Part shown: positions 52,185 to 54,699 of the stretch, piece after piece | Layout: every line of letters starts with the position of its first letter | Position numbering within the stretch: the stretch's first letter is position 1 | Assembly: GCA_904395805.1 (NCBI GenBank) | Contig: CAJFNV010000044.1 | Coordinates: 62,001-126,000, forward strand | DNA from: Candidatus Gallispira edinburgensis | GTDB lineage: Bacteria; Bacillota; Clostridia; Lachnospirales; CAG-274 | Length of the DNA: 64,000 bases | Reading direction: 5' to 3' | Program-made: the position numbers and the translations under genes | Notes under the pieces: model-generated | What the model saw: the letters and a program-made list of their open reading frames with translations, nothing else | Told to the model about the DNA's origin: nothing | The model's database searches: none

Positions 52185-52674
52185 TTACCTCAATATCCCG
52201 ATTATCTTCCCAGCATCAGACAAAGTCAAGCCCATCTCATTATTTGTCATAAACTGATGCTTCCTTACTTCCTCATTATTCAAATCCAGATCATCTATAA
52301 CAAGCCACTTTTTAACATCCTTATGTTCTTTAAGCCAATAAAGTATTTCCTTTGCTTTTACAAGACTAACTTTTTAGTTCCCTGATTTCCTCTGTAGAAA
52401 AATCAGGTGTGACATCATAAATTTCAATACCGTACTTTCCAAAAATCTCAGCAAGAAATTTCGATTCTTTTCTCGTCGGCTTAATATCATTATCAAACCA
52501 GAATTTCCAGCCTGAATGTAAAACAACAACTGCACCTGTTTTTATAAGTATCTCCTTTAATAATTTCACCTTATCCTCATCAATTAATACCCCTCTTTTG
52601 ATTTCTTCCTTGTGATTTTCATTCCAACTCTTTGAATTAAGCACACCATCTATATCTAAAAATATAATCTTCAT
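52185..52674 (-). pseudogene. HAD-like hydrolase (HAD_SAK-type), split by a +1 frameshift
   Basis: The first frame (52366-52674, 102 codons) starts MKIIFLDIDGVLNSKSWNEN with the HAD nucleophile motif DIDGVLN and continues to VVVLHSGWKFWF (motif II). It stops at ...IRELKS. Removing one A from an A5 run at about 52371 restores a frame reading KVSLVKAKEILYWLKEHKDV. That frame then has VKKWLVIDDLDLNNEE (acidic motif IV) and ends at 52185, giving about 163 residues, the usual family length. The relatives I have in mind are the HAD domains of Swiss-army-knife RNA-repair proteins. It is a real frameshift, a sequencing error or programmed slippage. The start overlaps the NUDIX stop (ATGA). Confidence 0.7.
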
Positions 52675-53117
52675 ATTTCATTACTCTCGATGTTATAATT
52701 TTCTATAGCATATTTAATCATAATCGGTTGTATATCGGGATAAGTCATATTCAAAGGCAGCTTATCAAAAAGAAATACCTTTTCGATTTCACTATGCAGT
52801 TCCTTTTCAAAGCTGAAAATTTCCGCATAATACAGCATACCGAAGGTTTCCTCATTTTTTGATATAACCTCATTTTTACCTGTCACCGAATAAACACACA
52901 AAGGTCTAATTTCATAGTCAACCGCTCCGGTTTCTTCTGTAAGCTCCCTGACAGCTGTATCATCTATTTTCTCACCCTTTTCCCTGTGCCCGCCGGGAAT
53001 TTCATATGTATTCCTTTCCCTGTGTTTACATAAGACCCATTTCCCCTTTGATTTTGAAATAATAACTGCAAATTTAAGAAAATTATCATTTACTTTATCA
53101 TAAAATTTTACAACCAT
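52671..53117 (-). CDS. NUDIX hydrolase
   Basis: The 148-residue protein has an intact Nudix box GGHREKGEKIDDTAVRELTEETGA at about 42-65 (G, E, REL, EE and G all in place). The N-terminal strand FAVIISKSKGKWVLCKH and the start resemble MutT/YtkD-like clostridial proteins. It hydrolyses a nucleoside diphosphate linked to another moiety; the substrate is unknown. It lies 19 bases after the HTH-PurM gene and overlaps the HAD gene by 4 bases, so the three form an operon. Confidence 0.93.
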   Translation of the reverse strand: MVVKFYDKVNDNFLKFAVIISKSKGKWVLCKHRERNTYEIPGGHREKGEKIDDTAVRELTEETGAVDYEIRPLCVYSVTGKNEVISKNEETFGMLYYAEIFSFEKELHSEIEKVFLFDKLPLNMTYPDIQPIMIKYAIENYNIESNEI

Positions 53118-53136: not shown

Positions 53137-54402
53137 TCAATTCATATAAGCCTTACTTTTCCAGTTAAGATTATTTATAAATTCGACCCTACTATTTCCC
53201 TTTTTTATTTTACCTATTTCATAACAATCATAATATTTTGAAATATGTTCTTTTACATAATTTTTATTCCTCTCATTTACAATTATAATTAATCCGACTC
53301 CGCAGTTAAATGTGTGGAGCATTTCCTCATCACTGATATTCCCCGCATTTTTAATATATTTAAAAATATTAAGTATACGCACTTTAGACAAGTCTATTTC
53401 AGCAGACAGTCCATCAGGTATTATTCTGGATAAATTATCCCTTATCCCGCCTCCTGTAATATGTGCCATACCATGAATACAGCTTTTATTTAACAGACCC
53501 TTTATAGCCTTATAATAAGGAGTATGTGGTTTCATAATATTTTCAATAAAAGTTACACCGTCAATTTTATCAAGCTTGATTTGCGGTATTTTATCCATCA
53601 GAAGTCTTGCCAGAGTATATCCGTTTGTGTGTAACCCATTTGAGGCAACAGCAAGAATGGCATCATTTTCCTGAATTTTCGCCCCATCAATAACATTCTT
53701 TTTATCAGCTATTCCGACAATGCTTGATGTCAGTATGTAAGTTCCCTTATTTAATACCATAGGCTGTATTGAAGTTTCACCACCCACAAGAGAACACTCA
53801 TTCTCAAAACAAGCTTCTGCAATTCCGCTGACAATACTCTTTATAGTGTCCTTTTCCGCATTACCGCAAATAATTGTATCGAGGACTGCAAGAGGTTTCG
53901 CTCCCATAACAGCTATGTCATTAACCAAATGATTTATCATATCATAACATATTGATTTTGTATATCCATATTCTATAGCCAGCTTCTGTTTTGAACCCGG
54001 TTCTTCTGCCTTCATAACAAGTACAGGTTCTTTAATGCCGGGAAAACCGATGTCGTATAATGATGCAAAATCTCCAAGACTATTGAGCACTCGTTTATCG
54101 CCTGATGCAAGTATTTTTGACATATCCCTTTTAATAGAGTCTGTATAATCAATATCAATTCCCGCCTTGCTGTAGGAAAAGACTTCTTTCTTTTCATTCC
54201 CAGAAAGTATTTCATCAACAGTTACTCCAAGAATTTCCGCTAAATCACATATTATATCAATGTTAGGATAAGCCTGTCCCGTTTCCCATTTTGATATTGC
54301 CTGAAAAGATATGTTAAGCCTGTCAGCCAATTGCTGCTGTGTCATACCCTGCTGCTTTCTTTTGTTCATAATAAAAGTACCAACTTTAATACTGTTTAAC
54401 AT
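53137..54402 (-). CDS. XRE-type helix-turn-helix fused to a PurM (AIR synthase)-like domain
   Basis: Residues about 8-65 are a canonical Cro/CI helix-turn-helix (MTQQQLADRLNISFQAISKW). Residues about 75-415 are a complete PurM-like two-domain fold: AGIDIDYTDSIKRDM, VNDIAVMGAKPLAVLDTI, SLVGGET, DAILAVASNGLHTNGYTLAR, HGMAHITGGGIRDNLSRIIP, EEMLHTFNCGVGLIIIV. Two sites differ from PurM enzymes. The ATP-loop TDGVGTKL is AEEPGSKQ, and the GGETAEMPG loop is GGETSIQPM. It may be a nucleotide-sensing regulator instead of a purine biosynthetic enzyme. It heads an operon with NUDIX and HAD genes. No other pur gene is nearby. Confidence 0.85.
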   Translation of the reverse strand: MLNSIKVGTFIMNKRKQQGMTQQQLADRLNISFQAISKWETGQAYPNIDIICDLAEILGVTVDEILSGNEKKEVFSYSKAGIDIDYTDSIKRDMSKILASGDKRVLNSLGDFASLYDIGFPGIKEPVLVMKAEEPGSKQKLAIEYGYTKSICYDMINHLVNDIAVMGAKPLAVLDTIICGNAEKDTIKSIVSGIAEACFENECSLVGGETSIQPMVLNKGTYILTSSIVGIADKKNVIDGAKIQENDAILAVASNGLHTNGYTLARLLMDKIPQIKLDKIDGVTFIENIMKPHTPYYKAIKGLLNKSCIHGMAHITGGGIRDNLSRIIPDGLSAEIDLSKVRILNIFKYIKNAGNISDEEMLHTFNCGVGLIIIVNERNKNYVKEHISKYYDCYEIGKIKKGNSRVEFINNLNWKSKAYMN

Positions 54403-54426
54403 TTCATATACCTCCGTTTTTCTTTT

Positions 54427-54456
54427 ATTATAAATTCATATTCAGGTATATTTCAA
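54427..54456 (-). promoter_or_regulatory. Promoter of the HTH-PurM/NUDIX/HAD operon
   Basis: On the minus strand, TTGAAA (54451-54456), 18 bases and TATAAT (54427-54432), 25 bases before the start. The remainder of the 352-base gap (54403-54754) is A/T rich, with the sigE terminator at its far end. Confidence 0.65.
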
Positions 54457-54699
54457 TAATAGGAAAGTAGAAATTTTTGTTTATATTCTATCAGCAGTAG
54501 AATACATTGAGCATAACTGTAAATCAAATATTTATTATGTCACATCAATATTCAACACACATCATATAAATCGTTTACTATATAATCAAGCTTTTCAAAT
54601 TCTATTATAGTACAGAGAATTTATAAAATTATCTTATTCCAATATATCGACAAATCACTTACATCTATTATACTATTTACAAATCATTACTGCAACTAA

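Follow-up and report, generated by a model that had tools for sequence, protein, structure and literature searches.

A PurM domain fused to an XRE helix-turn-helix, a candidate autoregulated enzyme-regulator in Clostridia

On the reverse strand of the window, the 64-kb stretch of DNA analysed here, there is a 421-aa open reading frame with an ATG start that joins an XRE helix-turn-helix (HTH) to a complete PurM domain (Table 1). The HTH_3 domain has an intact recognition helix and is followed by the two Pfam domains of the enzyme, AIRS (aa 147-231, E=2.7e-17) and AIRS_C (aa 244-403, E=1.7e-22). With the NCBIfam purM model (TIGR00878) the protein scores about 271 bits over aa 76-401, which passes the cut-off of 236, and it stays below the curated cut-offs for ThiL (45 of 184 bits), HypE (42 of 252) and SelD (39 of 125). 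The AlphaFold model has a mean pLDDT of 89.6, and its top fold matches are the solved PurM structures 5vk4 and 1cli, with a TM-score of 0.91 (target length) and E-values of about 1e-35. A preliminary description of this DNA had read one uninterrupted frame with an HTH and then a full PurM fold, and the open reading frame, Pfam, NCBIfam and AlphaFold all bear this out. The motifs it quoted are also right: AEEPGSKQ stands in place of TDGVGTKL and GGETSIQPM in place of GGETAEMPG, and VNDIAVMGAKP, NGLHTNGY and HITGGG are retained.

Table 1. Features of the fusion locus, with positions in the window
Feature	Position	Strand	Basis or remark
HTH-PurM fusion gene	53137..54402	(-)	ORF, Pfam, NCBIfam, AlphaFold, fold match
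XRE/HTH_3 DNA-binding domain, aa 11-65, recognition helix SFQAISKWE	54208..54372	(-)	Pfam PF01381, E=3e-17
PurM-type domain, aa 76-401	53200..54177	(-)	TIGR00878; alignment with 62 canonical PurMs
AEEPGSKQ loop, aa 132-139, replaces TDGVGTKL	53986..54009	(-)	alignment
GGETSIQPM loop, aa 207-215; E144, otherwise invariant in PurM, is I212 here	53758..53784	(-)	alignment
Ribosome-binding site GGAGG of the fusion gene	54411..54415	(-)	sequence
-10 element TATAAT, family-conserved spacing	54427..54432	(-)	promoter alignment
Putative operator O2, TTTCTACTTTCCTATTATTG, overlaps the -35 (about -43)	54454..54473	(-)	family consensus approximately TTCnA-N7-GTTATTG
Putative operator O1, palindrome ATTCTAC-TGCTG-ATAGAAT, centre about -74 from the inferred transcription start	54485..54503	(-)	motif search
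NUDIX hydrolase gene, 19 bp after the fusion gene	52671..53117	(-)	association not conserved in relatives
HAD_SAK_2 domain protein gene, overlaps the NUDIX gene	52366..52674	(-)	association not conserved in relatives

The fusion gene lies behind sigE and spoIIGA and is followed by the NUDIX and HAD_SAK_2 genes, away from purN and the canonical purM. The NUDIX gene and the short HAD_SAK_2 gene (52366-53117) are apparently co-transcribed with it. When the neighbourhoods of relatives were compared, no conserved operon partner of the fusion clade was found, and no neighbour indicates a pathway. A role in defence was also considered and rejected, as PADLOC gave weak HTH matches only. The window's genome, which is 98% complete, encodes a separate canonical PurM of 339 aa with the TDGVGTKL loop, directly upstream of purN; with the purM family model this protein scores 462 bits, compared to about 272 for the fusion. 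The case which the preliminary description had set against its own reading, a fused copy with an inert HTH as the only purM of the genome, is therefore absent here, and a canonical purM was found in every fusion genome that was searched whole.

HTH-fused relatives that are 58-73% identical to the window's fusion (group F) are encoded in 17 genomes besides the window's own, mostly Lachnospiraceae-like MAGs, and two further genomes (L052 and L068) hold fusion copies that are broken in the assembly, so that chance or a chimeric assembly can be ruled out as the origin of the fusion. Relatives without an HTH (group S) are 47-56% identical and occur in Paenibacillus, Cohnella, Treponema, assorted Clostridia and on two viral contigs. 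A third group (lineage D) is again HTH-fused, is 32-35% identical and comes from four genomes that belong to the same family as the window. In the PurM tree, group F and the HTH-less L036 form one clade, with support of 100/100, that is nested in group S. Lineage D sits on a very long branch, which makes its position in the tree unsure. The HTH of lineage D is 47-54% identical to that of the window, and by sequence the HTHs of D and F are compatible with a single fusion event, which is not a proof of one. In the unsaturated pairs of group F, dN/dS was 0.04-0.16 for the HTH and 0.05-0.09 for PurM, and in those of lineage D it was 0.05-0.13 and 0.17-0.20, respectively. The HTH is therefore maintained in the measurable pairs, lineage D included.

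Plasmid and phage records gave no match above 60% identity, the best among the matches listed being a PurM without HTH, and the viral contigs searched for the fusion held HTH-less relatives only. These are two contigs of 195 kb (L168:5010-6026) and 83 kb (L169:5013-6008), with a variant PurM in which residue E144 is kept; in L168 a NAD synthetase-like gene lies a short way upstream of it. In two deep-branching MAGs (L059 and L067) the variant PurM is located close downstream of a SAM hydrolase-like (DUF62-type) gene.

An expectation-maximisation motif search was run on the upstream regions of group F, with mononucleotide shuffles as controls. It detected a 19-bp palindrome, ATTCAAC-N5-GTTGAAT, with a log-likelihood of 105.8 (26-34 in the shuffles), and a GTTATTG element with a log-likelihood of 77.7 (31-40 in the shuffles). 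The resulting bipartite element, ATTCWAC-N5-GTWGAAT plus a GTTATTG overlapping the -35, is present in the window and at the fusion promoters of 15 other genomes, and O1 is the best-scoring palindrome within the whole window. Measured between their starts, palindrome and GTTATTG are 39 bp apart in the window and in 14 further genomes; the exception is L035, where GTTATTG and the -10 both lie about 10 bp nearer to the palindrome, roughly one helical turn. A -10-like hexamer is found at a constant position in the fusion promoters, and the alignment columns reveal TTCnA before GTTA, a second, half-palindromic site against the -35. With 15 promoters aligned on the palindrome, its arms are 70% and 78% identical and CGGTTATTG is 86% identical, compared to 26-28% in three other stretches: the palindrome spacer, the 40 bp that precede the palindrome, and the DNA between -35 and -10. 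Since the surrounding DNA is only 26-28% identical, kinship of the fusions cannot account for the conserved element. The upstream evidence is weak at L044 and absent at L034 and L039, whose contigs end close by.

The upstream regions of the HTH-less relatives are without the palindrome, with a top score of 7.3 versus 13.9-21.8 in the fusions. One region in the control set of 75 upstream sequences scored 18.9, for which the likely source is the fusion loci that this set still held, such as L002, L004, L050 and L052. From the conserved operator-like element at its own promoter and the purifying selection, we conclude that the HTH is probably functional. To this extent the preliminary description, which had a ligand of the PurM part control a working DNA-binding domain, holds up; the control by a ligand keeps the standing of a supposition. 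The region it had proposed for footprinting, 54403-54460, needs to be shifted, since most of the stretch with the likely binding sites (54454-54503) is located immediately upstream of it.

A search tolerating up to 3 mismatches located a single composite site in the window's genome, the one at the fusion gene, and the control pattern is absent from this genome. Most fusion genomes likewise have the composite site at the fusion gene only. Matches with 3 mismatches away from the fusion were mostly treated as chance, because the control pattern is comparably frequent in several genomes. Two other good matches in fusion genomes are found in front of an XRE-methyltransferase gene (L141) and in front of its decayed copy (L142). 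The decayed gene (L142:182-535, in the genome of L042) still has the operator in front and is followed by a HAD hydrolase gene.

At L141, the XRE-methyltransferase gene is followed by purC, and a canonical purC is encoded elsewhere in that genome, next to purF. A second purC was found in 2 of the 23 genomes searched, both of which also encode the fusion, and in both it carries the bipartite element; in one of them, G1151, it follows an XRE-methyltransferase gene with the same element at a spacing shifted by 1 bp. The conserved motifs of the second purC under the element are apparently intact. The arrangement of an XRE-methyltransferase (TehB/TPMT-like), then a second purC, with a bipartite operator, is seen at L147:3705-5439 and L157:1302-3101 in fusion-bearing genomes. 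Beyond G1148 and G1151 no purine genes were found under the operator. Because the second purCs of two genomes carry it, the element appears to be linked to alternative purine enzymes.

D94, H247, T249 and R259 form the proposed active site of PurM (PMC5919458). The E. coli residues D94, H190, N192, H247, T249 and R259 correspond to D162, H258, N260, H314, T316 and R326 of the fusion and are all retained. Together with N256 and N299, they are retained in every aligned sequence of groups F and S, and the TGGG motif is present in all group F fusions but one. Compared with 62 canonical PurMs, groups F and S share the signature D65E, G66E, V67P, T69S, L71Q, A143S, M145Q and T226H. The EEPGSKQ loop is common to all fusion proteins and HTH-less relatives, and the GGETS-QP loop is found in HTH-less proteins as well. 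With AEEPGSKQ and I212, the fusion fails the signature of all canonical PurMs sampled, which is the TDGVGTK loop plus E144. The only strongly conserved canonical residues that are kept in most HTH-less proteins serving as sole PurM and are absent from group F are T64, E144 and L223. E144 is invariant in canonical PurM, is retained by 10 of the 11 HTH-less proteins that serve as sole PurM (the exception being L036) and is Ile or Val in all of group F. As it is lost in every fusion, catalysis or ligand specificity of the fusion may be altered. Four Paenibacillus proteins of group S (L053-L056) also have Ile for E144; these have no HTH, and canonical PurM is present in the same genomes.

In seven genomes (G108, G239, G473, G802, G843, G1169 and G1170) PurD and a FGAR-amidotransferase domain are encoded and the HTH-less variant is the only PurM above the cut-off; the listed completeness is 89-96% for five of the seven. 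The variant is likewise the sole PurM in G965, but there the FGAR-amidotransferase match is weak and partial, and in G266, a genome that is only 70% complete. At L036, L037, L038, L061-L063, L071, L088 and L090 an EEPGSKQ-type PurM is encoded, which apparently replaces canonical PurM in several genomes. From these genomes, the HTH-less group S is likely to be a functional PurM. Its members carry the altered loops and yet are the sole PurM in FGAM-making genomes, which suggests that AIR synthesis is possible with such loops; the loop changes therefore cannot serve as proof of lost catalysis. The preliminary description had taken them as a feature of the fusion and a mark of its conversion from an enzyme into a sensor. 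This argument does not hold: those sole PurMs have the EEPGSKQ and GGETS-QP loops too, all four proposed catalytic residues are retained in the fusion, and what distinguishes the fusion from its HTH-less relatives is the loss of E144.

On balance we lean towards the fusion being an autoregulated, PurM-derived protein that is both enzyme and regulator, in the style of BirA and PutA. A purine enzyme, or a former one, probably controls its own gene here, and it probably senses a purine intermediate, which it would have to bind. PurM dimerisation would present two HTH domains as a dimer, which would bind O1 (centre about -74) and O2 (over the -35, about -43). The ligands of the PurM domain would be ATP plus either FGAM or a closely related compound, which may or may not be turned over. 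The presence of FGAM, ATP or both in the pocket would act as the signal, and occupancy would alter DNA binding. Lambda CI, with its domain of the HTH_3 class, binds tandem sites at PRM, the proximal one against the -35, and activates this promoter. The tandem sites of the fusion are alike, whereas its other part is a PurM fold, and from the spacing the DNA-bound protein would activate its own promoter in the same way. Self-activation is favoured over simple repression because the fixed spacing and position resemble those of lambda CI at PRM. The variant PurM would then be made when a pathway intermediate or the nucleotide state calls for it. Lineage D, with its catalytic site decayed and its HTH retained, looks like a pure regulator coupled to an ABC exporter. 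A more specific version, in which the protein is a PurM-fold transcription factor and a FGAM/ATP-responsive activator of itself and, in some genomes, of the second purC, is put forward tentatively.

We regard it as rather unlikely that the fusion is a working alternative PurM isoenzyme, for instance a stress-induced back-up or inhibitor-insensitive one, with an HTH that merely autoregulates its synthesis and a PurM domain that serves mainly for catalysis and does not act as a sensor. The retained catalytic residues, the HTH-less members, which are the sole PurM of seven or more genomes that make FGAM and are also carried by two viral contigs, and, in two genomes, the apparently intact second purC under this element would all fit such an enzyme, but E144 is lost in all fusions and a canonical purM is present wherever a whole fusion genome was searched.

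We give a low probability to a pure ligand sensor, whose PurM domain has a purine intermediate or nucleotide as its ligand and no longer converts it, as the preliminary description proposed. The loss of E144 would agree with it, and so would the persistence of lineage D (L006-L009), in which the active site is destroyed: D94, H190, N192, H247, T249, R259 and the TGGG motif are all gone. In all four loci the gene runs into that of an ABC exporter, with an overlap of about 28-46 nt. However, these same six residues and TGGG are kept in nearly all fusions, and such conservation is unusual for a non-catalytic protein.

The XRE-methyltransferases preceded by the element have the recognition helix SFQAVSKWE, and therefore another XRE protein could read it, with the fusion as one target and its own HTH weak or idle; we consider this very improbable, since neither the window's genome nor most fusion genomes have the element anywhere but at the fusion gene, and the HTH of the fusion is under purifying selection where measurable.

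For an autoregulated enzyme-regulator, the general design has precedents. In the trigger enzymes BirA, PutA and NadR, an enzyme and a DNA-binding domain are combined in one chain that acts on its own pathway or promoter. The fusion has the same one-chain design and putative sites at its own promoter, whereas the folds and reactions are unrelated, and in the fusion both DNA binding and catalysis are putative. BirA is a bifunctional enzyme-regulator (PMC6391492). Enzyme-regulator chimeras are thus already known, but a search of the openly accessible literature turned up neither PurM as the enzyme part nor any bacterial PurM as a transcription regulator. The human Zincore complex, SEPHS1:QRICH1 on DNA (PDB 9hjt), is described as having a PurM-superfamily fold, a selenophosphate synthetase paralogue, in a DNA-bound transcription complex; it differs from the fusion in the absence of an HTH fusion and is a remote fold match only.

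PurM/AIR synthetase itself (TIGR00878; 1cli of E. coli, 5vk4 of N. gonorrhoeae) shares the fold, about 33% identity over the domain, D94/H247/T249/R259 and the dimer and ATP-side motifs. Unlike this enzyme, the fusion has an XRE HTH, the EEPGSKQ loop, no E144 and a putative operator of its own, and it lies outside the purine operon with a canonical purM also in the genome. The closest kin of its PurM part is the HTH-less EEPGSKQ-type PurM, with the identity given above and the same altered loops, which differs in having no HTH and no operator, in being the sole PurM of several genomes and in mostly keeping E144.

These comparisons also concern annotation, as assignment of purM by TIGR00878 can mask an enzyme-regulator, and an EEPGSKQ-type variant PurM appears to stand in for the canonical enzyme in some genomes. 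If the proposed reading is true, the HTH-less enzyme, the fusion that keeps the catalytic residues and the catalytically inactive HTH-PurM next to an exporter gene would represent three steps on the way to a regulator, in which the change from enzyme to regulator could be watched, and purine synthesis would own an internal sensor built from one of its enzymes.
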